Of a stretch of 64,000 bases of DNA, positions 2 through 33,877 are shown piece by piece; the first letter of the stretch is position 1, and every line of letters starts with the position of its first letter. The notes beneath the pieces were generated by a model, which was not told the DNA's origin, searched no databases, and saw nothing but the letters and a program-made list of their open reading frames with translations. The position numbers and the translations under genes were made by a program. The stretch comes from Antrihabitans stalactiti (GTDB lineage: Bacteria > Actinomycetota > Actinomycetes > Mycobacteriales > Mycobacteriaceae): contig NZ_VCQU01000017.1 of assembly GCF_012932915.1 (NCBI RefSeq), positions 1 through 64,000 on the forward strand. Direction: 5' to 3'.

Positions 2-133
2 ACCAAGATCCGGTTGATCACGCGACGCGGCTTCGGGTTTCACACCCCCGAAGCCGTCGTCGCGCTGGCGATGCTCAGCCTCGGCGGTTCCCGACCCCAG
101 CTACCCGGCAGAGACCCACGGATGAGTCAGTAG
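2..133 (+). CDS. ISL3-family transposase, C-terminal end only (partial)
   Basis: An open frame enters from the left edge and ends at TAG 131-133. The 43 visible residues include TKIRLITRRGFGFHTPEA and ALAMLSLGG, which match the typical C-terminal end of ISL3-family (DDE) transposases. Only the tail is present, so it cannot be judged whether the element is intact. No terminal inverted repeat typical of an IS end is seen downstream; instead a family A palindrome begins directly at the stop codon. It could be an insertion-sequence remnant. Confidence 0.75.
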   Translation, partial: TKIRLITRRGFGFHTPEAVVALAMLSLGGSRPQLPGRDPRMSQ

Positions 134-175
134 AGCCTCTTTTAGGAGTCCCTGGACTCCTGAAAGACTCACGAG
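130..175. repeat. Family A palindromic repeat, copy 1
   Basis: The right arm ACTCCTGAAAGACTCACGAG (156-175) pairs with a left arm (130-149) whose outer part is degenerate; only its inner part, CTTTTAGGAGT, matches the family. The loop is CCCTGG. The copy lies between the transposase stop and the stop of the convergent DUF4873 gene, which begins at the next base (176). This is the most diverged of the seven copies. A bidirectional terminator or a dispersed REP-like element are both possible. Confidence 0.8.
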
Positions 176-511
176 CTATTCGACCTCGCTCAGCTCGGTG
201 GGCACGTGGTAAGGGGGAGTGCTCTTGCCGATGATGCGGTACCGATTCCATGGATCCGGGTCGCCGAGATAGGCAGGCCGTGCGCTGTGCTCGGTGCGGA
301 TCGTGGCTTTCGTGCGCTGCTCGCCGGCCAGTATCTCGGTCAGCGCGTCGTTGGGTTCGATGCGACCGATCCAGCGGTAGATGCCGTCGATCGGCTCCCG
401 ATATCCCTTGATTTCGACCTGCGCAGGTATCTCGGTGCCGCGGACGATGATCGTCGCGGGGCCGATGTAATCGGAACCTTCGTGCGGGCTGTGGGCGAAG
501 GCGCTGCTCAT
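176..511 (-). CDS. DUF4873 domain-containing protein
   Basis: 111 aa, no known catalytic function. The start at 511 is chosen because AGGAGGA lies just upstream; an upstream in-frame ATG at 562 has no such site. The sequence (YIGPATIIVRGTEIPAQVEIKG, then YRWIGRI) resembles DUF4873, a small beta-rich domain found alone or fused to flavin monooxygenases in actinobacteria. It is transcribed away from the diiron/BVMO operon starting at 655 and shares the 143-bp intergenic region with it. That fits a role linked to the operon, but this is inference. Confidence 0.7.
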   Translation of the reverse strand: MSSAFAHSPHEGSDYIGPATIIVRGTEIPAQVEIKGYREPIDGIYRWIGRIEPNDALTEILAGEQRTKATIRTEHSARPAYLGDPDPWNRYRIIGKSTPPYHVPTELSEVE

Positions 512-549
512 GGGTCCTCCTCTTGTCGCCACCTTTGACGTCATCTTTG

Positions 550-620
550 TTGTCATTGACAAGGTCGGTGGCCTCGATCACACTCTGAACAGTACACGGA
601 ACCGGCGGTATGAGATACCG
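550..620. promoter_or_regulatory. Divergent control region with two short palindromes
   Basis: Two perfect inverted repeats lie between the DUF4873 gene and the oxygenase operon: TTGTCA-T-TGACAA at 550-562 and CGGTAT-GAG-ATACCG at 606-620. The second ends 34 bases before the ATG at 655. Palindromes of this size are typical of TetR-family operators, and the operon ends with a TetR gene (7841). No promoter can be assigned with confidence. Operator function is inferred only from symmetry and position. Confidence 0.45.
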
Positions 621-654
621 ATAGTTCGAGACGTACTGCGAAGGGAGTTGGACA

Positions 655-1659
655 ATGGAGTCCGACAGCGAAGCTAGGTTTCACCGGCCGACTACGACCA
701 CGGGCGCCAGAGTTGTGCACCGTCGCGGCGTCGGCGAACGACAGAAGACCGCCCAGCGTTTGTTGTTCGCGGCAGCAGAAGCGAGCTACGACGGTGAGTT
801 GGACATCAACTGGGATGCGCCCATCGAGCCAGGGAAATACTGGCTGCCACCGCATCTGGTGTCGGTATACGGCACTCGGCTCTGGGATTCGCTGACCGAG
901 CAGCAAAAAACCGAACTGGGCAAACACGAGTTGGTCAACATTCTCACGCTCGGTGTCTATGCCGAGTGCGCGCTGTCGATGCTCATGTTCCGCGACATCG
1001 CGGAAGCCGACGGATTAGCCGACGACAGTTCACGATTCGGCCTCGCAGCGATCAACGAGGACACTCGCAACGCGACAATGTTCGGGCGGCTGATCAACAA
1101 GGCGGACCTCCCGCCCTACAAACGCCCGCGTGCCGTCGGCCTGCTGTCGCGGTTGGTGATGTTCGCGCCGACAGGCCCCGCAGGGCGGGCAACGATGCTG
1201 CTGGTCGAAGAGGCCATGCATCGCCTCGTCGTGGAGCTTGCTGTCGATCCCGACATTCAGCCACATGTACGGCAGCTCATGAAGATTCACGCGCTCGCCG
1301 GCGATCGTCACATCGAATTCGCGCGAGCCGAGGTGCAGCGCACCATCGCCGAACGCAACGCAATCGCCAACGCTATTCATTCGATTGCGGCAGCCGCCGT
1401 TGCGGCGTCGATCTATCCGCTGTTGATCAATCCCGAGGCCTACAGCGCCGTCGGCATCAACCCGGTCCGCGGGTTGCTCGCGGCATTCCTCAGCGACCAG
1501 TACGCGACGCAAGCGCGTGCGGTCACGAATTCGTTTGTGCATTTCGGCTCACGCGTCGGGCTGTTCGGCGGCGTGAGCGGCGAGATGGCGAAAGCCGTTC
1601 TGCGCCTCGGCCGAGTGTGGCCACCGCAACAGCAACGCGAGATGATTGGAGCTCGATAG
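655..1659 (+). CDS. AurF-like diiron oxygenase paralog with a degenerate metal site
   Basis: 334 aa, in the AurF/p-aminobenzoate N-oxygenase-like diiron family. GGGAG precedes the ATG. It is clearly a paralog of the next gene (both contain SYDGELDINWDAPI and QPHVRQLMKIH), but metal-ligand positions are changed. The EETRH motif of the neighbour is E135-D-T-R-N139 here, and H-x3-E-x2-H becomes H212-x3-G216-x2-H219. The ligand-type residues E104 and E185/E186 remain. The family uses an oxo-bridged diiron centre held by Glu and His, so this copy probably cannot bind iron normally. It may be a structural or regulatory partner of the intact copy, which starts 2 bases after its stop. The long conserved frame argues against a pseudogene. 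Confidence 0.8.
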   Translation: MESDSEARFHRPTTTTGARVVHRRGVGERQKTAQRLLFAAAEASYDGELDINWDAPIEPGKYWLPPHLVSVYGTRLWDSLTEQQKTELGKHELVNILTLGVYAECALSMLMFRDIAEADGLADDSSRFGLAAINEDTRNATMFGRLINKADLPPYKRPRAVGLLSRLVMFAPTGPAGRATMLLVEEAMHRLVVELAVDPDIQPHVRQLMKIHALAGDRHIEFARAEVQRTIAERNAIANAIHSIAAAAVAASIYPLLINPEAYSAVGINPVRGLLAAFLSDQYATQARAVTNSFVHFGSRVGLFGGVSGEMAKAVLRLGRVWPPQQQREMIGAR

Positions 1660-1661
1660 CA

Positions 1662-2639
1662 ATGACTTCTGTAGTAACGACCGCCGGTGCCTCGACCACG
1701 CGGGGACACAACGTCGGTGACCGCCAAAAGACCGCTCAACGGCTGCTCCGTTCGACCGCGGACCGCTCCTACGACGGCGAACTGGACATCAACTGGGACG
1801 CGCCGATCGACCCGGAAAAGAAGTGGATGTCCGAACATCGCCAAACCCTGTACGGCACAAAGCTTTGGGACAAGCTGACTCCCGAACAGCGCAACGAACT
1901 CGGAAAGCACGAAGTGGTCAGTGTGCTCAGCTTTGGCATCCTCGCCGAGGTCGGGCTGAGCGGCATGCTGTTGCGCACCGTCCTGGAGAGCGACGGCCTC
2001 GTCGACGACCACTGCCGCTATGCCCTTGCCGAAATAGGCGAAGAGACAAGACATTCGACGATGTTCAGCCGACTGATCAACAAGTCGGGGCTGGCGCCGT
2101 ACACGGCCCCGAAATTCAGCCGCTCGATTCTGCGGCTGACCGGCCTCATACCGATCGGGCCCTCGGCGTATGCGGGGACGCTGCTCATCGAGGAAGTCCT
2201 CGACCGGCTGCAACGCGAAATGATGAACGATCCCGAGGTGCAGCCGCACGTGCGTCAGCTGATGAAGATCCACGTCCTCGAGGAAGCGCGCCACATCACC
2301 TATGCCCGTGAGGAATTGGTGCGCAGCATCGCCGCGCGAGGTAAGGCGTCCAACGCATTTCACCGTGGCGTCTTCGCCGTGATGGTGCTCGGCGTCTTCC
2401 CGGTACTGATCAATCCGAAGGTCTATCGGTCGGTCGGCATCGGGGCCCTGGAAGGTCTCATCGCCGCACAGACCAGCCCTCAGTACAAGCGAAACACCGT
2501 GTTTGCGGGCGAGCCGTTGCTGCGGTTCGCGCACGAGGCCGGCTTCATCAAAGGTGCGATCAGCACGCGAATTCTGCGGTTGGCGCGTGCCTTGCCAGAC
2601 GACATCTTCGAGGAACTCACCGGAAAGCGCAGCGCATGA
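1662..2639 (+). CDS. AurF-like diiron oxygenase
   Basis: 325 aa, AurF-type diiron oxygenase family (N-oxygenases and related O2-activating enzymes). The expected ligand set is visible: E96, E127/E128 with H131 (EETRH), E177/E178, then H204, E208 and H211 in HVLEEARH. The start at 1662 directly follows the upstream paralog's stop, and the alignment of the two N-termini supports it. Its last four bases overlap the BVMO gene (ATGA). The likely electron source is the [2Fe-2S] reductase at 4978. The substrate cannot be read from the sequence; a lipid, fatty acid or sterol-like compound is a guess from the neighbours. Confidence 0.8.
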   Translation: MTSVVTTAGASTTRGHNVGDRQKTAQRLLRSTADRSYDGELDINWDAPIDPEKKWMSEHRQTLYGTKLWDKLTPEQRNELGKHEVVSVLSFGILAEVGLSGMLLRTVLESDGLVDDHCRYALAEIGEETRHSTMFSRLINKSGLAPYTAPKFSRSILRLTGLIPIGPSAYAGTLLIEEVLDRLQREMMNDPEVQPHVRQLMKIHVLEEARHITYAREELVRSIAARGKASNAFHRGVFAVMVLGVFPVLINPKVYRSVGIGALEGLIAAQTSPQYKRNTVFAGEPLLRFAHEAGFIKGAISTRILRLARALPDDIFEELTGKRSA

Positions 2640-4123
2640 CATCAACCGAGCCCATCCATACTCGAGTCCTCATCGTCGGCAGCGGATTCTCCGGCCTCGG
2701 CATGGGAATTGCCCTCAAGAAGGACGGCCGGGACGACTTCATCATCCTCGAGAAGGCCACTGAGGTCGGTGGTACGTGGCGAGACAACACTTACCCCGGC
2801 GCCGCGTGCGACGTGCCGACGCACCTCTACTCGTATTCGTTCGAGCCTCGAAGCAAGTGGAAGTCGCTGTTCTCATATCAGCCGGAGATTTTCGACTACC
2901 TCAAAGAGGTCACCGACAAGTACGGGTTGCGTCCGCACATCACGTTCGGCAAGACGCTCGTCCGCGGGTACTGGGACGAAGCGGAAGCCCGGTGGCACGC
3001 GTTCGCCGACGACGGACAGGAATACGTCGCCCAGTTCATCGTGTCGGCGATCGGCGCACTCCACATTCCGAGCATTCCGCACCTCGACGGCATCGAGAAT
3101 TTCGAGGGCGTCGCGTTCCATTCGGCGCAGTGGAATCACGACTACGACCTTGCGGGCAAGCGGGTAGCCGTCATCGGAACCGGCGCCAGCGCAATTCAAT
3201 TCGTCCCCGAGATCGTTGGCAAGGTCGGTAGTTTGCAGGTCTACCAGCGCACGGCGCCGTGGGTCCTCCCGCGCGAGAACATCGCCTTCCCAGCAGGTCT
3301 GAAAGCCGCGTTCGAATATGTGCCAGGTCTGCGTCGAGCGTTCCGCAACGGCATCTATTGGGGTGCCGAGGGCGGCGCATACGCCATGAACAAGCGGCCG
3401 AATCTGTTGCGCGGCCTCGAATTGATCGGAAAGCGTCACATCCGCAATCAGATCGCGGACCGACAATTGCGTGCGAAGGTCACCCCCGACTATCGAGCAG
3501 GTTGCAAGCGACTCCTCGGCTCGAACACCTACTACAAGGCGATCGCGAATCCGAAGACCGAACTTGTCACCGAACGCATCGCACGGGTCACGGCGGACAG
3601 CATCATCACTGCTGACGGCGTAGAGCGCAAGGTCGACGCAATCATCTACGGCACCGGCTTCCACGTCACGGATTCGTTCGAGCACCTGAGCATCAAGGGC
3701 CGCGACGGCGAGGACCTCGTCGATCGGTGGGCCCAGGAAGGCATGCAGGCGCACCGCGGAATCACCGTCGCCAATGTGCCCAACGCGTTCTTTCTGCTCG
3801 GTCCGAACACCGGACTCGGCCACAACTCGATCGTCTTCATGATCGAATCCCAGATCCGCTACGTCGTCGAGGCACTGCGGCTGGTCGATGCCAAGCGCGC
3901 GAAAGCAATTGCCCCGCGTCGCGACGTGCAGGACCGTTTCAACGCCGAGCTGCAACGGAAGCTGGCAGGCTCGGTGTGGAACTCGGGTGGCTGCTCGAGT
4001 TGGTACCTCGACGAGCACGGCAACAACCGGACGCTGTGGGCCGGCTTCACCTGGGAGTACTGGCGCGACACTCGCAGGATCAAACCCGAAGAATACGAGC
4101 TGATAGGAACCACGAAGCCATGA
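2636..4123 (+). CDS. Flavin-containing Baeyer-Villiger monooxygenase
   Basis: 495 aa. The N-terminal FAD motif GSGFSG (15-20) is followed by the BVMO fingerprint F156-x-G-x3-H162-x3-W166 and a second Rossmann motif GTGAS, presumably for NADPH. These enzymes insert one oxygen of O2 next to a ketone to form an ester or lactone. The start codon overlaps the preceding stop (ATGA), and the stop overlaps the next start in the same way, so the operon is translationally coupled. It would act after, or on the product of, the diiron oxygenase or the SDR. The ketone substrate is unknown. Confidence 0.88.
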   Translation: MTSTEPIHTRVLIVGSGFSGLGMGIALKKDGRDDFIILEKATEVGGTWRDNTYPGAACDVPTHLYSYSFEPRSKWKSLFSYQPEIFDYLKEVTDKYGLRPHITFGKTLVRGYWDEAEARWHAFADDGQEYVAQFIVSAIGALHIPSIPHLDGIENFEGVAFHSAQWNHDYDLAGKRVAVIGTGASAIQFVPEIVGKVGSLQVYQRTAPWVLPRENIAFPAGLKAAFEYVPGLRRAFRNGIYWGAEGGAYAMNKRPNLLRGLELIGKRHIRNQIADRQLRAKVTPDYRAGCKRLLGSNTYYKAIANPKTELVTERIARVTADSIITADGVERKVDAIIYGTGFHVTDSFEHLSIKGRDGEDLVDRWAQEGMQAHRGITVANVPNAFFLLGPNTGLGHNSIVFMIESQIRYVVEALRLVDAKRAKAIAPRRDVQDRFNAELQRKLAGSVWNSGGCSSWYLDEHGNNRTLWAGFTWEYWRDTRRIKPEEYELIGTTKP

Positions 4124-4968
4124 AGGACTTCAAAGACAAAGTCGCCGTCATCACGGGGGCAGGGTCGGGCATCGGCCGCGCACTCGCGCTGAATCTCGCG
4201 GAGCGTGGAACGAGGTTGGCGCTCTCCGATGTCGACACGACCGCCGTCGCCGATACCGCCGGGCGGTGCGAGAAGCTGGGCGTCAAGGCGCTTCCGTACA
4301 ACTTGGATGTCGCCGATCGCGCTGCGGTCTACGCCCACGCCGAGGACGTCCGCGCCGAATTCGGTGGCGTCAACCTGGTGTTCAACAACGCCGGTGTCGC
4401 GTTGAGTGCCGATGTCATCGACATGACCTGGGAAGACTTCGACTGGCTGATGAACATCGACTTCTGGGGAGTTGCCCACGGCACCAAGGCTTTTTTGCCG
4501 GACCTGATCGCCTCGGGCGACGGACACGTGGTGAACATCTCCTCGGTGTTCGGGCTGATGGGCATTCCGTCGCAAAGTGCCTACAACGCAGCGAAATTCG
4601 CGGTCCGCGGGTTTACGGAAGCGCTTCGGCAGGAAATGAAGATCGCTCGGTATCCCGTCGGCGTCACGTGTGTACACCCCGGCGGGATCAAGACAAACAT
4701 CGCCGTCAATGCACGAGGTATCAAGGAGACCAACGACATCGAGAAGGTGCGCGAGGGTTTCGAGCTGATTGCGCTCACCCGGCCGAGCTCTGCCGCCAAG
4801 ATCATTCTGAAAGGCGTGGAGAAGAACAAGGCTCGTGTGCTGATCGGTCCGGATGCGCGGGGCTTCGATCTGATCCCGCGCGTCGTCGGTCCGCGCTATC
4901 AGGATCTCAGCGCGCCCATCGCCCGCGTCGGGCTCAAAGCAGCCGAGCGGTTCGGCTTCGACCTATAG
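4120..4968 (+). CDS. Short-chain dehydrogenase/reductase
   Basis: 282 aa, classical SDR. The cofactor motif TGAGSGIG is near the N-terminus, NNAG follows in the middle, and the active site has Ser in NISSVFG with Tyr and Lys in SAYNAAK. Such enzymes interconvert alcohols and ketones with NAD(P)H. The start overlaps the BVMO stop by four bases. Making or removing the ketone handled by the BVMO is the simplest role. A longer reading frame upstream in this phase overlaps the BVMO gene and is not used. Confidence 0.87.
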   Translation: MKDFKDKVAVITGAGSGIGRALALNLAERGTRLALSDVDTTAVADTAGRCEKLGVKALPYNLDVADRAAVYAHAEDVRAEFGGVNLVFNNAGVALSADVIDMTWEDFDWLMNIDFWGVAHGTKAFLPDLIASGDGHVVNISSVFGLMGIPSQSAYNAAKFAVRGFTEALRQEMKIARYPVGVTCVHPGGIKTNIAVNARGIKETNDIEKVREGFELIALTRPSSAAKIILKGVEKNKARVLIGPDARGFDLIPRVVGPRYQDLSAPIARVGLKAAERFGFDL

Positions 4969-4977
4969 GGGAGTGCG

Positions 4978-6024
4978 ATGGCCGAAACGGCGAACACCCA
5001 TGTCCACAACCTCGAGGTCGTCGAGGTGATCAAGGAGACCGACGACGCCATGTCGGTGGTCTTCGAGGTGCCCGAGCACCTCGTGCACAAGTTCCGGTAC
5101 CAGCCGGGGCAGTTTCTGACACTGCGAATTCCCAGTGCGACAACAGGATCGGTCGCTCGGTGCTATTCACTGTCGAGCTCACCGCATCTGGACGACGATC
5201 TTATCGTGACGGTCAAGCGGACATTCGACGGCTACGCGTCCAACTGGATCTGTGACAACGTGGCCGTCGGGACCCGAATGACGGTGTTGTCGCCTTCGGG
5301 AGTGTTCGTCCCGAAGTCGTTGGACGCCGACCTGCTCTTGATCGGTGCGGGAAGCGGCGTGACGCCGCTGATGTCGATCGCGAAGTCTGCCCTCGTCGGC
5401 GGAGCTGCGACCGTCTACTTGATCTACGCAAACCGGGACGAGCGCTCGGTGATCTTCGGCGCCGAGTTGGACGAGATGATGGTCGAATTCCCCGACCGAA
5501 TCATCGTCGAGCATTGGCTCGAAATCGACCGGGGTTTGCCGACCGCCGACGCGCTCGTCGATCTGGTGGCGCCCTTTCCGACCTACGACGCGTTCGTGTG
5601 CGGACCCACGCCGTTCATGGCGGTGGTGGGCGACGCGCTCGCCGCGATCGGAATGCCCGATTCGCATATCCACATCGAGCGCTACCAGTCGCTGACGGGT
5701 GATCCGTTCGCCGACATCGTGATCCCCGAGATCACCGATGGCGAAACCCCTGCCACCGCCGTCGTCGAACTCGACGGAGCGAAGGTCGAGGTCGCGTGGC
5801 CGCGGACGACGCCGCTGCTGGATGTGCTGCTCAGCAGGGGCTACGACGCTCCATACTCCTGCCGGGAAGGCGCGTGCAGTGCCTGCGCCTGTACGGTCCG
5901 AACAGGAGAAGTGCGGATGTTGCGCAACGACACACTCGTCGAGGCAGACCTGGCGATCGGTCTGACACTCGCCTGCCAGGCTGTGCCGCTGAGCGACAAT
6001 GTTGAGATTGCTTTCGACCAATGA
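4978..6024 (+). CDS. FNR-type oxygenase reductase with C-terminal [2Fe-2S] ferredoxin domain
   Basis: 348 aa. Domains in order: FAD-binding barrel with R61-C-Y-S64, NAD(P)-binding domain with GAGSGVTPLMS (about 123-133), and a plant-type ferredoxin domain with C295-x4-C300-x2-C303 and C333. This is the layout of KshB- and HmpX-type reductases that feed electrons from NAD(P)H to oxygenases or desaturases. GGGGAGTGCG precedes the ATG. In this operon it is the natural donor for the diiron oxygenase. The exact partner is inferred from position. Confidence 0.88.
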   Translation: MAETANTHVHNLEVVEVIKETDDAMSVVFEVPEHLVHKFRYQPGQFLTLRIPSATTGSVARCYSLSSSPHLDDDLIVTVKRTFDGYASNWICDNVAVGTRMTVLSPSGVFVPKSLDADLLLIGAGSGVTPLMSIAKSALVGGAATVYLIYANRDERSVIFGAELDEMMVEFPDRIIVEHWLEIDRGLPTADALVDLVAPFPTYDAFVCGPTPFMAVVGDALAAIGMPDSHIHIERYQSLTGDPFADIVIPEITDGETPATAVVELDGAKVEVAWPRTTPLLDVLLSRGYDAPYSCREGACSACACTVRTGEVRMLRNDTLVEADLAIGLTLACQAVPLSDNVEIAFDQ

Positions 6025-7835: not shown

Positions 7836-7840
7836 CGGAC

Positions 7841-8515
7841 ATGACTGCGGCGCCTACGATCGGACGCGTGTCAGGTACTCGGACAGACGCGCGTACCGAC
7901 CGTTGGCGTGAGCATCGCGCGGCGGTTCGGGAGCAGCTGCTCGACGAGACGGTGAGAGCAATCGAGCTGTTCGGTCCGGACGTGTCGGTCGACGACATCG
8001 CCAAGACGGCTGGGGTGCCGAAGCCCAAGCTCTACCGCTACTTCAGTGACAAGAGCGAGCTTTTCGATGCCGTCAGCGATCGGGTCCACGCGATGATGCT
8101 CGAGCGGATCACGCCGCATCTCGAGCTGTCGGGACCACCGCGGGATGCCATTCGATCGGGCCTCGCCGCCTACATCGGACTCGTGGACGAGCACCCGAAT
8201 CTCTTTCGCTTTCTGGTCAATTCGCATTTCATCGACGGTCAGACGGCGATGGAGCGAATCCGTGCGGGTGGTCAGACGCTCGCCGCGATGGGTGCGGCCA
8301 CGTTGACCGCGATCATCGAAGCGGGCGGTGGCAACGCAGGGGAAGGCGTCGAGGTCGTCGTCGACGCGCTCCTCGGCGCCGTCGCGCTCGGGGTGCTGCG
8401 GTGGCTGAATTACCCGACCATCAGTGCCGACGAATTGGTCGAACAGATGCTCATCGTCGTGTGGGGCGGGCTCGCCGCGACGCTCGAGTCACGAGGCGTC
8501 GCCATCACCTCGTGA
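7841..8515 (+). CDS. TetR-family transcriptional regulator
   Basis: 224 aa. The N-terminal helix-turn-helix covers VSVDDIAKTAGVPKPKLYRY; the C-terminal half is a variable ligand-binding domain. It starts five bases after the oxygenase operon and is probably its last gene, so it may control the palindromes at 550-620. Its stop codon TGA (8513-8515) lies inside family A repeat copy 2, so the last codons (Ser-stop) come from the repeat. Confidence 0.82.
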   Translation: MTAAPTIGRVSGTRTDARTDRWREHRAAVREQLLDETVRAIELFGPDVSVDDIAKTAGVPKPKLYRYFSDKSELFDAVSDRVHAMMLERITPHLELSGPPRDAIRSGLAAYIGLVDEHPNLFRFLVNSHFIDGQTAMERIRAGGQTLAAMGAATLTAIIEAGGGNAGEGVEVVVDALLGAVALGVLRWLNYPTISADELVEQMLIVVWGGLAATLESRGVAITS

Positions 8516-8554
8516 GTCTTTTAGGAGTCCAGAGACTCCTAAAAGACTCACGAG
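8509..8554. repeat. Family A palindromic repeat, copy 2 (perfect stem)
   Basis: A perfect 20-bp inverted repeat: CTCGTGAGTCTTTTAGGAGT, loop CCAGAG, then the exact complement. It contains the stop codon of the TetR gene and ends 18 bases before the proposed GTG start of the exporter gene. A strong stem between tandem genes could end transcription or stabilise the upstream 3' end. Confidence 0.92.
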
Positions 8555-8571
8555 CGTGTAAGTCTGTTGTC

Positions 8572-10532: not shown

Positions 10533-10539
10533 CCCCACT

Positions 10540-10585
10540 GTCGTGAGTCTTTTTGGAGTCCAGAGACTCCAAAAAGACTCACGAG
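10540..10585. repeat. Family A palindromic repeat, copy 3
   Basis: 19-bp perfect arms (TCGTGAGTCTTTTTGGAGT, loop CCAGAG, complement) at a convergent gene junction. The stop codon of the minus-strand peroxiredoxin-like gene (10581-10579) is inside the right arm. Compared with copy 2, the T:A pair in the stem is changed on both arms together, which keeps the pairing. Confidence 0.92.
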
Positions 10586-11130
10586 GCTTGTTCGGTTACG
10601 ACCGAGTTCAGCGCCCTGACGATGTCGTCGGCGGGGGCGATGTCGTGGGCGTGATGAGCGCGGAAGTCCCAGAGCACTTCCTTGCCGCCGATGCTGGCGA
10701 CGAAGACTCCGCCGAGTTGGCGGTTGTCGCCGGTCCGCTGGTACGGGTACACGCCTGTGCGGATGAGTCCGACCAGCGGCGCGACATTGGCAGGTCCGTG
10801 CGCACCGATCCAGGCCCGCTGCAGACCCATCGTTCGGTACAGGGTCTGGTCATTGGTCGTCAGCACGGGGAACCGTGTGCCTGCGCGCTTCCGGAAGGTG
10901 AAGGCCTGAATCGGTGTACCCAGCCCGATGAACACCACGTTGCCCCCCGCTGCCGTTATGTCGGGGTAGCGGCCATTGAGCGCCCGCGCTTGTTCGAGCG
11001 CGAATGCGCTGCCGAATTGACGAAGGAACACGAATGCGACGGGGCCGTCGCGCCAGAAATCACGGATCTCGTGCTGATGGTGGCGGTCGTCGATCAACCG
11101 CTCGTTCGCGATGACGTCTACGCGGCTCAT
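10579..11130 (-). CDS. Peroxiredoxin-like (AhpC/TSA_2 type) protein lacking all cysteines
   Basis: 183 aa with a thioredoxin-fold layout (VAFVFLRQFGSAFALEQA, then VVFIGLG). In the AhpC/TSA_2 family the segment after FLR-x-FG normally carries the reactive Cys pair. Here it reads S-A-F-A, and the whole protein has no cysteine, so peroxidase activity by the usual thiol route is not possible. The start overlaps the stop of the MpaB-type gene by four bases. A binding or scaffold role is possible. The family call rests on pattern only. Confidence 0.65.
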   Translation of the reverse strand: MSRVDVIANERLIDDRHHQHEIRDFWRDGPVAFVFLRQFGSAFALEQARALNGRYPDITAAGGNVVFIGLGTPIQAFTFRKRAGTRFPVLTTNDQTLYRTMGLQRAWIGAHGPANVAPLVGLIRTGVYPYQRTGDNRQLGGVFVASIGGKEVLWDFRAHHAHDIAPADDIVRALNSVVTEQAS

Positions 11131-12179: not shown

Positions 12180-12219
12180 GAGACCTTCTCTCACGTCGTT
12201 GTGTCGGCTGTTGAGATTA

Positions 12220-12242
12220 CAATGCAATCTGTATTGCAAAGT
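12220..12242. promoter_or_regulatory. Putative TetR operator
   Basis: TGCAAT-CTGT-ATTGCA (12223-12238) is a perfect inverted repeat in an AT-rich patch between the divergent MpaB-type gene and the TetR gene. It is well placed to overlap promoters for both. Operator role is inferred. Confidence 0.55.
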
Positions 12243-12295: not shown

Positions 12296-12931
12296 ATGCC
12301 GAAGGCGTTGACGCGTGAAGAATTACAAGCGCAGACCCGCGACCTGATCGTGTCGGCAGCGGAACGGGTGTTCTTGGCCCGCGGCTACCACCCGACGACG
12401 ATCGCGCAGATCGCCGAGGAGGCGGGCCGCACGCACGGGTCGATCTATGGCAACTTCGCGGGTAAAGAGGACCTGTGCCTCCACGTGCTTCGCAGTCATT
12501 TCGAACACGTGCTTGCAGGGCTGTCCACTGCGGTCCTTACTGCCGACGGCATGGATGCCAAAAGGATTGCAACGCAACAGCAGTGGGAGAAACTGCTCGA
12601 GGAACCGGCCTGGATCAGACTCGCCGCCGACTTCACGATCGCCACTCGCAGCGACCCGCTGCAAGAAGAGTCCAACCGTGACACCGTCGATGGGTTCATC
12701 GCTGGGATCCAAGCCCTGGTCCTTGTGCAGGCCGCCGCGCTCGGAGTGCAGTCGGTCGACCCCGAACTACTCGAGCGGGCCTGCGCCGCACTTCTGGCGA
12801 CTGGTGTCGGGCTTGCGGTCGGCTATTCGCTCGGCGCAACGACGCGCGAACTCGCCGTCGTGGCGTTTCTCGACAGCGTCGAGCTGTGGTTTCGCCGAAT
12901 GGAGATCAACTCGCACGCTGCTACCTCGTGA
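12296..12931 (+). CDS. TetR-family transcriptional regulator
   Basis: 211 aa. The helix-turn-helix covers TIAQIAEEAGRTHGSIYGNF. The ATG at 12296 is chosen as the usual distance before the DNA-binding domain; GAGGAAG lies 10-12 bases upstream. It is divergent from the MpaB-type operon with a palindrome between them, so it probably controls that operon and itself. Its stop TGA (12929-12931) lies inside family A repeat copy 4. Confidence 0.83.
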   Translation: MPKALTREELQAQTRDLIVSAAERVFLARGYHPTTIAQIAEEAGRTHGSIYGNFAGKEDLCLHVLRSHFEHVLAGLSTAVLTADGMDAKRIATQQQWEKLLEEPAWIRLAADFTIATRSDPLQEESNRDTVDGFIAGIQALVLVQAAALGVQSVDPELLERACAALLATGVGLAVGYSLGATTRELAVVAFLDSVELWFRRMEINSHAATS

Positions 12932-12970
12932 GTCTTTTTGGAGTCTCTGGACTCCGAAAAGACTCACGAC
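12925..12970. repeat. Family A palindromic repeat, copy 4
   Basis: Left arm CTCGTGAGTCTTTTTGGAGT, loop CTCTGG, right arm ACTCCGAAAAGACTCACGAC. The loop is the complement of CCAGAG, so this copy is in the opposite orientation to copies 2 and 3. It lies at a convergent junction: the TetR stop is inside and the SixA-type stop (12972-12970) touches its right end. One stem position is a possible G-U pair. Confidence 0.9.
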
Positions 12971-15232: not shown

Positions 15233-15238
15233 CGGAGA

Positions 15239-19918: not shown

Positions 19919-19919
19919 G

Positions 19920-21938: not shown

Positions 21939-21942
21939 GCCG

Positions 21943-24197: not shown

Positions 24198-24218
24198 CCA
24201 GTGGGATATTCTCGCGCC

Positions 24219-25829: not shown

Positions 25830-25841
25830 CGAGGATCGAGT
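25807..25841. terminator. Hairpin at a convergent junction, probable bidirectional terminator
   Basis: ACTCGATCCTCG (25807-25818) pairs perfectly with CGAGGATCGAGT (25830-25841) across an 11-base loop that contains the kinase stop codon. It sits between the convergent kinase and TIGR03118 genes. No U-tract follows, which is common for actinobacterial terminators. It is unrelated in sequence to repeat families A and B. Confidence 0.6.
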
Positions 25842-25855
25842 CGCGGAGCGTCAGA

Positions 25856-27214: not shown

Positions 27215-27256
27215 GCGTAATCTCGCTCTCTGATCTCATATGCAGGACAACCTAAG

Positions 27257-27275
27257 AAAGGTTAGGCGAAACTAA
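27257..27275 (-). promoter_or_regulatory. Putative IdeR/DtxR iron box
   Basis: Read on the minus strand, TTAGTTTCGCCTAACCTTT matches about 15 of 19 positions of the IdeR consensus TTAGGTTAGSCTAACCTAA. It lies 43 bases upstream of the TIGR03118 start. A neighbouring CCTAA completes a second inverted pair with TTAGG (27251-27266). If real, the lipoprotein would be repressed when iron is plentiful. Confidence 0.5.
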
Positions 27276-27342
27276 CGTAGGGTTGCCTCTTATTGCAATA
27301 TCACCGACCGCGGATCGCGCCGGAAACGGCAGACCGGGTCGG

Positions 27343-29157
27343 CTAGCTGCTGACGACCTGCTCGATTCCAGGAGCTAGGACATCGCTCAGGTTCTCCCAC
27401 GGAATGGTCACGACGATGAGCCCCACCGCATGCGGACCGACTTGTCCGTCGGTGAAATGGATCTCCATGCCCGACGGCGTCGGCAGCCAGTTCGCGAAGT
27501 TGGCTTCGGTCGGTTCGATGCCGCCGGTGAAGTAGTCGGCGCCTGCGTCGGTGGTGGGCAGAAGGGTCGCTGCCTCGGTCGAGAGCTTACGCAGGCCGGC
27601 CGCTTTGTCTGCGAACAGCACATCGAGAGTGATGGGCTGCGCGTTGTCGGTGTCGATCACGACGGTGGCGACCAGCGCACTCGGGTGTGCGCCTGGCGGG
27701 ACGGCGTTCCATGAGGTCAGGAGCAGTCCGCCGACGACGTGTTCGCCGATGTGGCTGACTTCGCTGTCGGCACCCGTCAAGGTGAATACCTGGTCGGCAT
27801 TGCTGTCGATCTGATCCTGCAGCGCTGCCCGGATCGATTCGTTGAATTCCTTTGTCACCGCGGCATTTGCGCCCTCGATCTGCGGCAGATCGACGTCGTA
27901 GGTCGAGTTGTTGGGCGTCGTACCCTTCACCTGAATCGACGTTTTCGTGAACGCCGCGGCTGGTTCGACGGCGACGGTCGTCGTCGACGGTGCACTCGAC
28001 TTCGTAGCTGCGCGAGTCGTCGACGTCGCGGCCGCGGTGCTCGAATCCGACGACGAGCGCATTGCGAACGCCACGCCGCCGACGATGAACACCAATACCG
28101 CGGCCGCAGCAATTGCGATCCACATCGGTCGGCGTGATTTCGCGGGCGGAGTGGTAGGCGCGGGCGGTTGCTGCGGCGGCCGAGTTGGCTGCGGCGGTGG
28201 AGTCGGCCGGGGTGGTGGAAGGGTCGGCCTGGGTGGTGGCGTCGGCTGACGGTGCACCATTCGTCGCTGGGTCTGCGGGGGCGGATCGGCGCGGTTGTTC
28301 GTCGGCAACTGAATCGACAGCGCCCGGGCTGCGGCGATCGCCAGGTCGCGGCACGAGTCGTATCGGTGCTGCGGGTTTTTCGCCAATGCCCGCGCGATGA
28401 CCGCGTCGATCTCGGGCGGCAGTTGCGGGCGCACCGTCGTCACTCGAGGGGGCGGCTCCTCGAGATGTGCGGTCACGACGGCGATCATGTTCTTGCGTGG
28501 ATACGGGTGAAACCCGGTCAGCATCTCGTACAGCGTCGCGCCGAGCGCGTAGATGTCGGCACGGTGGTCGACAGCGTGTCCCTGCAGCTGTTCAGGTGCG
28601 GCGTACGCGATGGTGGCAATCACCTCGCCGGCGATCGTGAGTTGCCGAGTCTCTTCCATCGAGCGCGCGATGCCGAAGTCGGAGATCAGGGCTCGTTCGC
28701 CGCTGTCTTCGTCGGGCGCTGCCGTCACCAGGATGTTCGCGGGCTTCACATCTCGATGCAGCATCCCGAACCGATGCGCATGATCGAGCCCTTTGGCCGC
28801 ACCGTGCACGATCGCTACTGCGCGCCCGGGCGACAAGACGTTCGTCCCAGCCGCGACCAGACCCGCCACATCGGTTCCCTCGATGTACTGCATGGCAATC
28901 CAGAGCTGGTCGCCTTCGACGCCACGGTCGTGCACGGCGACGATATTGGGGTGGTGCAGACGTGCCGCGAGATCGGCTTCCCGTTCGAATCGCGTGCGGG
29001 ACATCGTGCTGCTCGAATGCTCACTGTTGAGCAACTTCAGCGCTTCCATCCGCGGTAAGCGTGGGTGCCGGGCGAGGTAGACCGATCCCATCCCGCCGCT
29101 TCCGAGTCGCCGTTCGATGGTGTAACCAGCGAAGGTCGAACCCGGTTCCAGCGTCAC
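27343..29157 (-). CDS. Transmembrane Ser/Thr protein kinase with DUF3298-like sensor domain
   Basis: 604 aa. The kinase domain (about 10-265) has GSGGMG, HRDVKPANI, DFG and APE. A long Pro/Thr/Gln-rich linker (about 285-340), one membrane helix (near 345-368) and a Ser/Thr/Ala-rich stalk follow. The outer domain ends with features of DUF3298 (HPSALVATVVIDTDNAQPI, VGLIVVTIPWENLSDVL), seen in RsiV-like and other cell-envelope sensors. The kinase core is similar to the kinase at 24219, suggesting duplication around the TIGR03118 gene, but the sensor domains differ. Confidence 0.87.
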   Translation of the reverse strand: MTLEPGSTFAGYTIERRLGSGGMGSVYLARHPRLPRMEALKLLNSEHSSSTMSRTRFEREADLAARLHHPNIVAVHDRGVEGDQLWIAMQYIEGTDVAGLVAAGTNVLSPGRAVAIVHGAAKGLDHAHRFGMLHRDVKPANILVTAAPDEDSGERALISDFGIARSMEETRQLTIAGEVIATIAYAAPEQLQGHAVDHRADIYALGATLYEMLTGFHPYPRKNMIAVVTAHLEEPPPRVTTVRPQLPPEIDAVIARALAKNPQHRYDSCRDLAIAAARALSIQLPTNNRADPPPQTQRRMVHRQPTPPPRPTLPPPRPTPPPQPTRPPQQPPAPTTPPAKSRRPMWIAIAAAAVLVFIVGGVAFAMRSSSDSSTAAATSTTRAATKSSAPSTTTVAVEPAAAFTKTSIQVKGTTPNNSTYDVDLPQIEGANAAVTKEFNESIRAALQDQIDSNADQVFTLTGADSEVSHIGEHVVGGLLLTSWNAVPPGAHPSALVATVVIDTDNAQPITLDVLFADKAAGLRKLSTEAATLLPTTDAGADYFTGGIEPTEANFANWLPTPSGMEIHFTDGQVGPHAVGLIVVTIPWENLSDVLAPGIEQVVSS

Positions 29158-29182
29158 TGTTCAGAGAATAGCTTCACCCACC

Positions 29183-29228
29183 CTTGTGAGTCCTTTAGGA
29201 GTCCAGGGACTCCAAAAAGACTCACGAG
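29183..29228. repeat. Family A palindromic repeat, copy 5 (in a divergent promoter region)
   Basis: Left arm CTTGTGAGTCCTTTAGGAGT, loop CCAGGG, right arm ACTCCAAAAAGACTCACGAG. It lies between two genes that diverge (kinase start 29157, oxidoreductase start 29269), the only copy not at a gene end. One stem position is an A-A mismatch. Its position means family A cannot be only a transcription terminator. Confidence 0.9.
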
Positions 29229-29268
29229 GGGTAGCGGGCATACTCGTGGTCGACGAGAGGACATTCGC

Positions 29269-30246
29269 GTGCGCGCAATCCAGGTGACCCGGCTCGATGG
29301 ACCCGAAGCGGTCGAACTTGTCGACATCGACGAGCCGAACGGTGATGGCAAGGTCGTGATCGACGTCTATGCGGCGGGGGTTGCGTTCCCCGATGCCCTG
29401 CAGAGTCGCGGTCTCTACCAGTACAAACCTCCCGTTCCCTTCGTGCCGGGTAGCGAGGTCGCCGGGATTGTGCGATCGGCGCCCGAAGGCGCAGGCGTGT
29501 CAGCCGGCGACCGCGTTGTCGGCCTCACCGCGCTTGGCGGGGGAATGGCAGAAGTTGCTGCGCTGCAACCGGATCTGGTGTTCAAGCTGCCGGACAGCGT
29601 GTCGCTGACCGCTGGAGCTGGCTTGTTGTTCAACGACCTGACCGTTCACTTCGCGTTGCTCCGCCGTGGTCGACTTACGAAGGGTGAGACGGTGCTCGTG
29701 CACGGCGCGGCCGGCGGCATCGGCACGTCGACGCTGCGCCTGGCCGGAGCGCTCGGTGCGTCGCGGACGATCGCAGTGGTCAGCTCGGAAGAGAAGGCCG
29801 AAGTCGCGCGGGCGGCCCGCGCGACCGACGTCGTCCTCGCGGACGGGTTCCTGGCGAAGGTCAAGGAACTGACCGGCGGCAAGGGCGTCGATATCGTCCT
29901 CGACCCGGTCGGCGGCGACCGTTTCACAGACAGCTTGCGTGCCCTCGCGCCTGCGGGACGTCTTCTGGTCGTCGGTTTCACCGGCGGCGAGATCCCGACC
30001 GTCAAGGTCAATCGGTTGCTGCTCAACAACGTCGACGTCGTCGGAGTCGGTTGGGGTGCCTGGTTCATGAGCCACCCCGGCTTCCTCACAGAGCAGTGGA
30101 CGGACTTCGAACCGCTGCTCGCCTCCGGCACACTCGTTGCCCCGGAGCCGGTCACCTACCCGCTCGAAGAAGCTGGTGCGGCCATCGCGTCTCTCGAGAA
30201 CCGGACCGCCAAAGGCAAGGTCGTTCTGACGGTTCGCGAATCCTGA
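29269..30246 (+). CDS. Quinone oxidoreductase-type zinc-free medium-chain dehydrogenase
   Basis: 325 aa from a GTG at 29269 with GAGAGG upstream. It has the MDR layout: a GroES-like N-terminal part (PFVPGSEVAGIVRSAP, GDRVVGL) and a Rossmann motif in VHGAAGGIGTSTLRLAGALGA. No zinc-ligand cysteines are seen, which fits NADPH:quinone reductases. A physiological substrate cannot be named. Its stop is three bases before family A copy 6. Confidence 0.84.
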   Translation: MRAIQVTRLDGPEAVELVDIDEPNGDGKVVIDVYAAGVAFPDALQSRGLYQYKPPVPFVPGSEVAGIVRSAPEGAGVSAGDRVVGLTALGGGMAEVAALQPDLVFKLPDSVSLTAGAGLLFNDLTVHFALLRRGRLTKGETVLVHGAAGGIGTSTLRLAGALGASRTIAVVSSEEKAEVARAARATDVVLADGFLAKVKELTGGKGVDIVLDPVGGDRFTDSLRALAPAGRLLVVGFTGGEIPTVKVNRLLLNNVDVVGVGWGAWFMSHPGFLTEQWTDFEPLLASGTLVAPEPVTYPLEEAGAAIASLENRTAKGKVVLTVRES

Positions 30247-30248
30247 CC

Positions 30249-30294
30249 CTCGTGAGTCTTTTTGGAGTCTCTGGACTCCTAAAAGACTCACAAC
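30249..30294. repeat. Family A palindromic repeat, copy 6
   Basis: Left arm CTCGTGAGTCTTTTTGGAGT, loop CTCTGG (reverse orientation), right arm ACTCCTAAAAGACTCACAAC. It is at a convergent junction. The stop codon of the UvrA-like gene (30290-30288) is inside the right arm. One T-T mismatch is present in the stem. Confidence 0.9.
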
Positions 30295-32717
30295 CGGTTG
30301 GACCTGCGCACGATCCGACCGCCGTCAGGTCCGCCGCCGGGTCCCATTTCTATGACGTGGTCGGCAGCCGCGATCAGCTGGTGTTCGTGCGTGATCACGA
30401 CGACCGTGCCGCCGTCGGTGACGAGCTGTTGCAACACCGATAGCAGCACATCGGTGTCGGCGAGGTGCAGACCTGTCGTGGGTTCGTCGAGGACGTACAG
30501 CGTTGCGGCACTACCCCCGGACCGTAGTTCGGTCGCCATCCGCAGCCGCTGCGCCTCGCCGCCGGACAGCTGCGGCGCGGGTTCGCCGAGATGAAGGTAT
30601 CCGAGGCCGACGCGCTGCAGATCTTCGAGTGCGGACCGGATGGCGTCCTCGCGGTCGAACACGGTCACCGCGCGGTCGACGCTGAGGGCGAGCACATCGG
30701 CGATGGTCAAGCCATGGACCGTCGCCGTCAGGGTCTCCGGGTTGTACCGCAGACCACGGCACGTCGGGCACATCGTTCTCAGATCAGGCAGGTACTGCAG
30801 ATCGATGACCAGCTCGCCGAGCCCGTCGCATGCGGGGCACCGACCGTCCGGTGTGTTGTAGGAGAAGCGGCTCGCGTTCCAATCATGTTCGCGGGCAACG
30901 GGAGACAAAGCGAACAGCGCGCGGATTCGATCGAAGACGCCGTTGTAAGTGGCGGGTGTGGATCGGGAGTTGCGTCCGATCGGTGTGGCATCGACGACCT
31001 TGACGCGTGCGAGCGGGCCCTCGATCTCCACTGCCCCGACGTGCTGTGGAAGCGGCTCGCCGTTCAGCCTGGCAACCAGCGCGGGTACAGCCGACTCCAG
31101 CAACAACACGCTCTTGCCAGCGCCCGACACCCCGGTCACGGCTGTGATCGCGCCCAACGGCAGCGCGAGGTCGACGCCGTGCACGTTGTGGCGCCGCACG
31201 TTTCGTACGGTCACGGACCCTGGCGCCCTAGGTGCGTACGACGCGACGCCACGGACCGTTCGCTCGCCTGAGAGGAATTCGCCTGTCGAACAACTGGATT
31301 CGCGAATCTCGTCCGGCGTGCCGGTCGCGACGATCGAGCCACCGTAGTCACCCGCGCCCGGACCGAGTTCGATGATGTGGTCGCACTCGCGGATCAGGTC
31401 GAGATTGTGATCGACAACGACGACTGTGTGGCCACGAGCCACCATGCGCCGCAACATCTTCACCAGTGCGGCCGTATTGGACGGATGCATGCCGGTGGAC
31501 GGCTCGTCGAGCACGTAGAGCACGCCCGTCGAGTCGTTGACTGTCGCTGCTGCGAGTTGGAGCCGCTGCCGTTCGCCGGTGGACAGCGTCGCTGCGGACC
31601 GACTCAAGGCCAGGTAGCCGACACCCAGTTCCACCAGTGGCTCGCGCAGGCGGACGATGTCGGCGGCTAGGGTGCGTGCGATCTCGGCTTGCGGGCCCGC
31701 CAACGCGCTACCGACCTCGTCGAGAAACGCCTCGACCCCGGCGATGGTGAGATCGCTTGCCTCCGCGACGTTTCGGCCCGCCAACGTGACCGACAACGCC
31801 TGCGGGTTGAGCTTCGTGCCGTGGCACACGGAACAGGTAGTCCGATGCATGAACGGCGCGATCCGGGTTCGGGTCGCGTCGCTGGTCGTCTTCTCCGCCA
31901 GCTTCCGTAAGGCCTCGACCGCGTTGTCGTACGTCGCGTTCATTGCAAAAGGGTTGCCCGCCTTGGAAATCACCGTGATGGGGACGTGCGTCGACGGACC
32001 GTTCAGCACGATGTCGCGCTCGCGTTCGGTAAGTTCGCGGAACGGGACGTCGGTGCGCACGCCGAGTTCCTTCGCCGCCGTTGCGAGAAACGGTCGGCCA
32101 GCGATGCGCCAGGTGACGACTGCGCCGTCGTCGATCGAGATCGTGTCGTCCGGAATCATCGACGACGGATCGATGTCGTCGCGTACGCCGAGACCGCCAC
32201 AGGTGGGGCACGCTCCTTGCGGACTGTTGAACGAGAAGTCGATCGCCGACGGGTTCGGTATCGGCTCGCTGCAGATCGGGCAGGGTTTCGGCAGCTCGGG
32301 AACGTCGAAGTACGACGCGTCGACACCGTGACCGTTCACGCAGTGCCGAACGCCGAGCCGCGAGTACATGAGTCGGAGGCCGTTGAGCAGCTCGGACGCG
32401 GTCCCGACGGTGCTGCGCGGTCCGGGAACGGGTGGGCGCTGCCGCAGGGCGAGCGCCGGCGGAAGGTATTCGACCGAGTCGACTGCAGGCCGCTCGGACT
32501 GGTCGAGTCGGCGGCGGGTGTAGGCAGACAGTCCTTCCAGGTACCGTCGGCTGCCTTCGCCGTAAAGAATTCCCATTGCGAGACTGGATTTTCCGGACCC
32601 GGAGACGCCTGTGATGGCAATCAGTCGGTGCAGGGGGATATCCAGTGAGACGTCCTTGAGGTTGTGCTCGCGCGCGCCGCGCACGCGGATCATCGACCAC
32701 GGCGGCGCTGGGCTCAT
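30288..32717 (-). CDS. UvrA2-type excinuclease-like ABC ATPase
   Basis: 809 aa from ATG 32717; an ATG at 32693 is also possible. There are two ABC modules with Walker A GVSGSGKSS and GVSGAGKSV, signatures LSTGERQRL and LSGGEAQRL, and Walker B VLDEP in each. Zinc-finger cysteine pairs (CPIC, CPTC, CPAC, CPTC) are present. The length is well below the roughly 950 aa of housekeeping UvrA and fits the class II/UvrA2 group, which lacks the UvrB-interacting domain and is often linked to resistance to DNA-damaging compounds. It is divergent from an AlkZ-like gene with 23 bases between starts. Confidence 0.85.
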   Translation of the reverse strand: MSPAPPWSMIRVRGAREHNLKDVSLDIPLHRLIAITGVSGSGKSSLAMGILYGEGSRRYLEGLSAYTRRRLDQSERPAVDSVEYLPPALALRQRPPVPGPRSTVGTASELLNGLRLMYSRLGVRHCVNGHGVDASYFDVPELPKPCPICSEPIPNPSAIDFSFNSPQGACPTCGGLGVRDDIDPSSMIPDDTISIDDGAVVTWRIAGRPFLATAAKELGVRTDVPFRELTERERDIVLNGPSTHVPITVISKAGNPFAMNATYDNAVEALRKLAEKTTSDATRTRIAPFMHRTTCSVCHGTKLNPQALSVTLAGRNVAEASDLTIAGVEAFLDEVGSALAGPQAEIARTLAADIVRLREPLVELGVGYLALSRSAATLSTGERQRLQLAAATVNDSTGVLYVLDEPSTGMHPSNTAALVKMLRRMVARGHTVVVVDHNLDLIRECDHIIELGPGAGDYGGSIVATGTPDEIRESSCSTGEFLSGERTVRGVASYAPRAPGSVTVRNVRRHNVHGVDLALPLGAITAVTGVSGAGKSVLLLESAVPALVARLNGEPLPQHVGAVEIEGPLARVKVVDATPIGRNSRSTPATYNGVFDRIRALFALSPVAREHDWNASRFSYNTPDGRCPACDGLGELVIDLQYLPDLRTMCPTCRGLRYNPETLTATVHGLTIADVLALSVDRAVTVFDREDAIRSALEDLQRVGLGYLHLGEPAPQLSGGEAQRLRMATELRSGGSAATLYVLDEPTTGLHLADTDVLLSVLQQLVTDGGTVVVITHEHQLIAAADHVIEMGPGGGPDGGRIVRRSNRL

Positions 32718-32740
32718 AGGCCGCAATGTTAGCGTCGGCC

Positions 32741-33838
32741 ATGGTCGAGAAGGTGCTGTCGAACCGCACGCTCAACCGAACGCTGCTTGCCCGCCAGCAT
32801 TTGCTGGAGCGGACCGAGCGCAGTGTGCCCGACATGCTCGACCACCTCGTCGGGCTGCAGGCACAAGACGTCCCGCCGCCGTTCGTCGCGTTGTGGAGCC
32901 GCGTCGCCGACTTCGATCCCGAGGTTGTATCAGCCGGGCTCGACGACCGTTCGATGGCACGAATCACTTTGATGCGCGGCACCATTCACCTTGTCACAGC
33001 CGCCGATGCGTTGCGGATCGCACCGCACATCCAGCCACAGCTCGAGAAGATCCCGTTTCGGAAGGGCTTCAACTACGGTGCGACGTTCGGGATGGATCCC
33101 GAGGACGTGCGCGCTCGCAGTGAGGCTCTACTCGGTGACGAGCCGATGACTGCCGCGGACCTCCGTGCGCTCGTTGCTGCCGAATGGCCCGACCGCGAAC
33201 CCGGACCGGTACTGCAAGCGCTGCTGTATCTGCTTCCCGTCCTGCAAACGCCACCTCGCGGCAAGTGGAAATGCAACAACCGCCCGACCTGGTCGCGGAT
33301 CGAAGCGTGGCTGGGGAGTCCGCTGGTACGCGACTACCCGGTGGACGATCTGGTCCTGCGGTACCTGCGCGCGTTCGGTCCGGCGTCGACCATGGACGTT
33401 TCGACGTGGTCCAAACTGACCGGCCTGAAGGAGGTCGTCGAACGTCTCGGTGATCGGGTCCGCACCTATCGAGACGAAGCGGGCAGGATGCTCTACGACG
33501 TCGCCGACGGGCAGTTGGCCGAACCCGACGTGGTTGCGCCCGTTCGGTTTCTGGGTTGGTACGACAACGCGCTCTTGTCGCACAAGGACCGCACTCGAAT
33601 CGTGCCGCCGGACCTGCAGATTCCGCTCGGTTCGCTCGGCGGCCTACCCGCTTCCATGCTCTTGGACGGATACGTAGCAGGCATGTACGACGTCGTCACT
33701 TCGGCCGACACCGCGACCCTTCGCCTCGCGTCGGGACGTCGTTTCTCTCGTCGCGAGGTCGGTGAAATCGAGGCCGAGGCGATGGCTCTGCTGCGATTCC
33801 TGGAGCCCGACAAGACGCCGGTCTTCCTACCGTTGTGA
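32741..33838 (+). CDS. AlkZ-like winged-helix (HTH_42) DNA glycosylase family protein
   Basis: 365 aa from ATG 32741. It belongs to the HTH_42/DUF1006 family, which includes AlkZ and YcaQ. The catalytic QxQ motif is seen at Q40-A-Q42 (GLQAQD). Known members unhook interstrand crosslinks or remove alkylated bases. Its start is 23 bases from that of the UvrA2-type gene, so both probably share one small divergent promoter region. Its stop TGA (33836-33838) lies in family A copy 7. Enzyme activity is inferred from the motif. Confidence 0.8.
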   Translation: MVEKVLSNRTLNRTLLARQHLLERTERSVPDMLDHLVGLQAQDVPPPFVALWSRVADFDPEVVSAGLDDRSMARITLMRGTIHLVTAADALRIAPHIQPQLEKIPFRKGFNYGATFGMDPEDVRARSEALLGDEPMTAADLRALVAAEWPDREPGPVLQALLYLLPVLQTPPRGKWKCNNRPTWSRIEAWLGSPLVRDYPVDDLVLRYLRAFGPASTMDVSTWSKLTGLKEVVERLGDRVRTYRDEAGRMLYDVADGQLAEPDVVAPVRFLGWYDNALLSHKDRTRIVPPDLQIPLGSLGGLPASMLLDGYVAGMYDVVTSADTATLRLASGRRFSRREVGEIEAEAMALLRFLEPDKTPVFLPL

Positions 33839-33877
33839 GTCTTTTTGGAGTCCATAGACTCCTAAAAGACTCACGAC
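33832..33877. repeat. Family A palindromic repeat, copy 7
   Basis: Left arm GTTGTGAGTCTTTTTGGAGT, loop CCATAG, right arm ACTCCTAAAAGACTCACGAC. It lies between tandem genes, overlaps the stop of the AlkZ-like gene and ends 21 bases before the palindrome at the nickel permease start. This is the rightmost family A copy; none is seen in the remaining 30 kb. Confidence 0.9.

Follow-up and report, generated by a model that had tools for sequence, protein, structure and literature searches.

Stop-codon-associated palindromes in Antrihabitans suggest an apparently undescribed REP-like superfamily of Mycobacteriales

What are the long palindromes that recur in the left 34 kb of this stretch of DNA, and how have they come to lie at the ends of genes? 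The window, as we call the whole 64-kb stretch analysed, corresponds to the initial 64 kb of contig C9 in an Antrihabitans genome of 6.76 Mb and 26 contigs, and a sequence-only reading of it had described seven such elements, here termed family A. All seven are present with the starts then given, the arm pattern has 13 matches in the window compared to a mean of 0.00 over 100 shuffles, and each of the seven folds far better than its shuffled versions (7/7, z from -4.9 to -10.5). Copy 1 (130..175), at the contig edge, is damaged: its outer left arm is replaced by the end of an ISL3-family insertion sequence, comprising a transposase C-terminus and a terminal repeat (1..139, plus strand), and the junction reads ...GTAGAGCC up to the boundary and TCTTTTAGGAGTC beyond it. 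Positions 1-139 match ISL3 transposase genes on Rhodococcus plasmids by up to 84.5%. Copy 2 (8509..8554) has a perfect 21-bp stem and lies between tandem genes, of which the upstream one, the TetR-type gene 7841-8515, ends on the TGA of the element. Copies 3 (10540..10585) and 4 (12925..12970) occupy convergent junctions, where the minus-strand gene 10579-11130 and the plus-strand gene 12296-12931, respectively, end on an arm TGA. Copy 5 (29183..29228) lies between divergent genes and has three mismatches in its outer 42 nt, copy 6 (30249..30294) is again at a convergent junction, and copy 7 (33832..33877), in a tandem gap, has a TGA that serves the AlkZ-like gene 32726-33838 as stop codon. 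By our own gene calls the two tandem and one divergent settings described earlier stand, and the four convergent ones are reduced to three, copy 1 being at the contig edge beside the ISL3 transposase. For this genome, seven copies in 34 kb is a high density (Poisson P about 1e-4, for an interval chosen post hoc). The confinement to the left 34 kb holds for family A and fails for a second 40-bp family (GTGCG type), which has three members in the right half of the window, all at convergent junctions: two at 43609..43648 and 44938..44977, and one in the opposite orientation at 46281..46320. At gathering scores, the only Rfam match in the window is a hya RNA (RF02992), and the palindromes match no curated RNA family. 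The hya RNA, at 36297-36369, is located just upstream of a NiFe-hydrogenase cluster (large subunit 37470-39266).

Beyond the window, a whole-palindrome search places family A at 203 near-complete sites in the 6.76-Mb genome, and the core arm has 212 matches per strand and 0 in the reversed control. The copies are neither few nor gathered in one duplicated block, and the proposal of a dispersed, genome-wide REP-like family is supported. The anatomy was read in 1.65 Mb of the 6.76 Mb, comprising contig C1 in full, the window and parts of further contigs, some of them chosen for holding copies. The core is a 40-bp unit from GTG to CAC, GTGAGTCTTTTNGGAGTC-YMKR-GACTCCNAAAAGACTCAC, and C-rich flanks (CCCACCC) belong to the element on both sides. 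The loop letters are as originally described, and the loop is four nucleotides long in 84 of the 85 sampled copies and three in one; the six bases given before had counted the closing C-G pair. The loops (CCTG 29, CAGG 28, CAGA 8, TCTG 5, TATG 5, TATA 5 and CATA 4) conform to a symmetric Y-M-K-R rule at the palindrome centre. They do occur in two orientations, and the loop was considered as a direction signal, which we reject: orientation is unrelated to transcription (17 versus 17 among 37 tandem copies, three not assignable) and to position along contig C1 (19/31 neighbours concordant, P 0.10).

Within the stem, 17 of the 18 pairs of family A are nearly invariant, and the sequence of pair 12 varies freely (TA 29, AT 24, CG 9, unpaired 19; n=81). 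The change on both arms at the variable position is confirmed for copies 2 (A:T) and 3 (T:A), and paired stem changes are found in the family as a whole. Selection for pairing, as suggested from these changes, agrees with pair 12 being paired in 62/81 copies in spite of its free sequence, but half of the sampled second-family copies (26/52) have identical unpaired positions, and no RNA-specific bias is apparent. Among mismatches on the transcribed strand, G-U is not favoured over A-C (17 versus 12, P 0.46), so that selection at the RNA level is not demonstrated by the stem.

Using gene calls from a simple caller of our own, 37 of 85 copies lie at convergent junctions, 37 in tandem gaps, five between divergent genes, three inside called genes and three at edges, and on contig C1 convergent placing is enriched (17/34 copies versus 189/1058 junctions, P 1e-5). 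The nearest stop codon is at most 16 nt away in 66/74 cases, and in 15/74 the distance is -7, which means that the TGA of the arm is itself the stop codon. Elements in tandem gaps keep close to the stop codon of the gene before them, not to the start of the gene after them, with 29/37 within 16 nt of the stop compared to a mean of 15.7 and a maximum of 25 in 10000 random placings. Of the GTG...CAC palindromes of all sampled genomes that have the 3′ end of a gene beside them, 139/156 are no more than 20 nt from its stop codon (by sample, 102/117, 27/29, 1/1, 2/2, 4/4 and 3/3), and only 4/127 sampled 40-mers fall inside called genes. In the window genome the adjoining stops are enriched in TAA (30/126 versus 139/1333, P 5e-5) and not in TAG (34/126 versus 371/1333), and in A. 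stalagmiti TAG is enriched (23/33 versus 179/590, P 9e-6). A TA target-site duplication is not claimed on these grounds, as TA-containing stops are enriched, yet the far side often has no TA; no target-site duplication of any kind was recognised at the element flanks. A hairpin near the gene end is present and a U-tract is absent: in the eight nucleotides that follow the element T amounts to a fraction of 0.23 and 0.10, and 9/116 and 0/44 sides, respectively, have four or more T, which makes a classical intrinsic terminator unlikely.

The relatives reveal a further component of the element. The window genome was compared with A. stalagmiti YC3-6, A. cavernicola C1-24 and Antrihabitans sp. YC2-6 (Nocardiaceae), and these carry species-specific versions. 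In A. stalagmiti a diverged sister family, CTCGTGAGTCYTTTYGGAGG, occupies 168 places; its arms are changed on both sides. In the 37 copies read there (in 0.71 Mb), the space between stop codon and palindrome holds a 12-nt GC-rich mini-hairpin, for example GCGGCTACGCCG or GGCGCTTCGCGC, and such mini-hairpins occur on both sides of the palindrome. Exactly 12 nt separate the stop from the 46-mer in 19/37 cases, and in 17 of those 19 the stop is TAG. Mini-hairpins right behind stop codons accompany palindromes almost exclusively, in 20/26 instances in A. stalagmiti and 5/6 at named Rhodococcus loci, and none was found behind 182 Mycolicibacterium or 217 Nocardia gene ends. In a few copies read from A. 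cavernicola, Antrihabitans YC2-6 and a further genome (G098) the mini-hairpins are whole, partial or missing, and the palindrome is present at 3/16 named Rhodococcus or Rhodococcoides loci examined.

The second family of the window genome (GTGCGYGNNTYTNNCCCN-type, 40 bp, 155 places) has 0 copies in the three sister Antrihabitans genomes. It resembles family A in length and in its GTG...CAC ends, and families inside one genome differ at most inner positions. Its copies are often imperfect, with common mismatches at pairs 8, 9 and 11 in 26/52 sampled copies and perfect pairing in five, and since half of the sampled members carry one set of mismatches, they must be products of copying. Twenty-seven palindromes of several genomes align without gaps over 40 columns and show double changes at 14/18 pairs; their 97.3% pairing is partly due to choice, as the rows were hand-picked as good 40-bp palindromes, and other lengths, such as 38, 42, 45 and 47 bp, were left out. 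A covariance model built from this alignment extends the search to relatives that the sequence-only reading had suggested, and at E 0.001 matches 25/91 genomes (own included) and 11/31 genera of the taxonomic family; at E 1e-5, it matches 7/81 genomes drawn from the order (own included). The numbers vary within genera: with both strands counted, the four Antrihabitans genomes have at least 72, at least 72, at least 62 and at least 8 matches, and five genomes of another genus (g10) have 0, at least 57, 0, at least 21 and at least 8. Two order-level relatives of another family (G462 and G450) give at least 34 and at least 12 matches to the 40-bp model. A BLAST search of phages, plasmids and viral contigs, run with no positive control for short palindromes, returned no element. 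Altogether, the palindromes appear to form a real and large REP-like superfamily of unusual anatomy, which is apparently undescribed.

Comparison of orthologous loci with and without the element indicates that occupied junctions are seldom common to sister species. Sampled parts of the window genome and of A. stalagmiti yield 238 reciprocal best hits. Behind these genes an element is present in the window genome alone in 11 cases, in A. stalagmiti alone in 10 and in both in three; where the next gene is syntenic as well (n=137), the counts are two, three and zero. A looser scan that admits decayed copies and other hairpins finds 9 gene ends occupied in both species, 19 and 8 in a single one and 202 in neither, a sharing above chance (P 1.5e-5), and for the syntenic subset the corresponding figures are 4, 4, 1 and 128. 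Two syntenic junctions have a 40-bp palindrome in either species, set in similar flanks, and in each case the families differ. The sharing of hairpins in the looser scan and the family difference at these two junctions suit a kept function better than free movement.

An element can also be followed at one gene end in Rhodococcus, behind a conserved ATPase gene, where 15 loci comprise three with the full module, two with a single mini-hairpin only, four empty ones and six with unrelated flanks. In the full loci TAG is followed by a mini-hairpin, the palindrome and a second mini-hairpin, the arm sequence being different in each of the three, and the empty ones have TAG or TAA, then CGGG and then the TCA of the other gene, leaving four nucleotides between the stops. 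This series implies that the module comes and goes in one piece at the stop codon, with arms that change. Copy 6 of the window and the gene 30288-32693 are missing together at the matching place in A. stalagmiti, where the orthologous flanking genes are adjacent. That gene, on the minus strand, encodes a UvrA-like ABC ATPase and has its stop codon within the palindrome; it is also absent between the orthologues of its neighbours in Antrihabitans YC2-6. Because the element at 30249 accompanies a gene absent from relatives, an integron-like attC cassette was considered, and was set aside as improbable, the elements being not arrayed and near symmetric. Nor do we claim that the elements mark breaks of synteny, since a raw enrichment reduces to P 0.033 in one direction and 0.17 in the other when gaps of at least 30 bp are compared.

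The palindromes are in turn entered by other mobile DNA. Among the 39 ends of 20 large contigs, counted without the C9 end, 18 are insertion sequence (IS) ends inside family A palindromes, five of them of ISL3 and 13 of elements with TGT...ACA ends; multi-copy IS sit at contig ends, and the figure is therefore no estimate of all IS insertions. The bodies of these IS lie in contigs that read N. The ISL3 ends (contig ends of C9, C21, C26, C7 and C11) interrupt the palindrome at its AT-rich octamer, and an 8-bp duplication, TCTTTTWG, is implied by the flanks of both ends in different copies. On Rhodococcus plasmids, by contrast, related IS are located in other kinds of sequence. The IS with TGT...ACA ends, of which there are several variants, are always at GAGTC, at the same base beside the palindrome centre (contig ends of C3, C4, C7, C10, C13, C20, C21, C22, C23 and C25, and C1:901846), and have no match in plasmid searches. 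Two open reading frames beside the IS end at C1:901846 have no Pfam match, and what is left there resembles a remnant. Throughout the sampled DNA, the end motifs searched for both IS occur only in palindromes, barring two unrelated matches to a loose motif, and, judged from these junctions, insertion sequences land preferentially in the palindrome.

The REP-associated transposase that the sequence-only reading proposed to look for was not found in the genus: Y1_Tnp (PF01797) is detected in 0/4 Antrihabitans genomes, compared to 5 of 14 control genomes, and among 15 carrier genomes a single one gives a weak match (25 bits versus a cut-off of 23). Mobilisation by a RAYT is accordingly rejected for the genus. 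No donor enzyme was found, and in the 1.65 Mb read the only lone arms are beside IS insertions or in mismatched or widened copies, so that no full-length element with palindrome ends is seen.

The reading that fits these observations best, to which we assign a probability of about 0.6, is a REP-like superfamily of Mycobacteriales that is copied without a Y1 transposase and places hairpins at the 3′ ends of transcripts. The 40-bp GTG...CAC palindromes would be disseminated along the chromosome by copying that makes no use of a Y1 (RAYT-type) enzyme, would be gained and lost at gene ends, and would persist directly behind stop codons. Transcription arriving from either side would then yield an mRNA whose end falls within or beyond a hairpin of 18-21 bp, which begins a few nucleotides after the stop codon or with the stop codon itself. 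Such a hairpin may shape the 3′ end, either through termination or processing independent of a U-tract, or as a barrier to 3′ exonucleases or to ribosomes at the stop. A bolder version, which we regard as unlikely, is a new kind of mobile DNA of Mycobacteriales aimed at stop codons, in which a unit of 12-nt mini-hairpin, 46-bp palindrome and 12-nt mini-hairpin would enter harmlessly by being placed exactly behind a stop or able to supply one, driven by a non-RAYT enzyme, with families swapped in place and the palindrome serving as a safe harbour for IS.

Ordinary host terminators, bidirectional and lacking a U-tract, would account for the position at stop codons, the convergent enrichment and the covariation under selection alone, with families arising by compensatory substitution and gene conversion and no movement at all. 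The above-chance sharing at orthologous ends, the in-place replacement at two syntenic junctions and the retention of the module, with differing arms, at one gene end in three Rhodococcus species point the same way, as do Streptomyces terminators, which according to the portion of PMC12207403 drawn on here have few U. This reading nevertheless has to explain near-identical sequence at some 200 loci, species-specific families with common mismatches, empty orthologous sites and patchy presence inside genera, and we consider it unlikely. The copied imperfections, indel states and patchy copy number would also be produced by non-autonomous MITEs whose transposase, of the DDE or another type, has ends that match the arms. 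The 1.65 Mb read, about a quarter of the genome, contains no full-length partner and no free-standing arm apart from those beside IS insertions or in mismatched or widened copies, and no target duplication was recognised; we hold this origin improbable. Two-fold symmetric binding sites of a chromosome-organising or regulatory protein would suit the 17 nearly invariant pairs with one free pair and the symmetric Y-M-K-R centre; a DNA site has no need of a stop codon to set its position, however, and the inner positions differ between families of one genome, for which reasons we hold such a role highly improbable.

The REP-like superfamily favoured here can be set beside several known systems. 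A hairpin motif at Mycobacterium tuberculosis gene ends, TRIT, is reportedly described in the RNIE paper, and the Antrihabitans element is similar, by description only, as a gene-end-enriched hairpin motif in Mycobacteriales. The 40-bp model at E 0.001 finds nothing in genera with many sampled genomes, such as those designated g45 and g22. As described in the parts of the REP literature cited here, REPs are short high-copy palindromes in species-specific families, located between convergent or tandem genes and downstream of genes (PMC3733652), some of them within 15 nt of a stop codon, a placing which a cited study ties to translation control (PMC12306157), and they are targets of insertion sequences (PMC1525189; on copy number, position and use as IS target see also PMC1590033). 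In the broad sense the present elements belong here, being short palindromes in many dispersed extragenic copies (203 and 155 places). They differ from the GTAG and CGTC REPs of PMC3733652 in being two-sided and in having no GTAG or CGTC tag at one end; with both flanks read, TAG appears only as the neighbouring stop codon, preceded by a varied base. The CGTC REPs, which in the same source apparently lack a dedicated transposase, are similar in that respect, but carry the tag and are found in other phyla. The main text of PMC3733652 does not mention Rhodococcus, Nocardia or Actinobacteria, and no account of these palindromes was found in the literature searched, with most subscription papers outside its scope. 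The IS that target REPs are members of IS3, IS110, IS4, IS256 and IS5 with a fixed insertion point inside the palindrome, as covered in part of PMC1525189, in contrast to the ISL3, with its inferred TCTTTTWG duplication, and the IS with TGT...ACA ends seen here.

Whether REPs are selfish elements, terminators or brakes on translation, and by what they are copied, is a long-standing puzzle. The present superfamily is large and patchy, lacks the usual transposase and occurs in genera with cultured strains, and with species of a single genus holding some 200, some 170 or few copies, tests of the copying agent and of what the hairpins cost or are used for come within reach. Assemblers and annotators would also profit, given how often contigs end in an IS copy inside a palindrome. 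Compared to the REPs of E. coli and other Proteobacteria, the present elements have arms of 18-21 bp, a 40-bp core, mini-hairpins, a location almost always behind stop codons and no Y1 transposase in the genus, and their tie to the stop codon is tighter than that of E. coli REPs, of which about 11% lie within 15 nt according to the portion of PMC12306157 used here, the two figures coming from different search methods.
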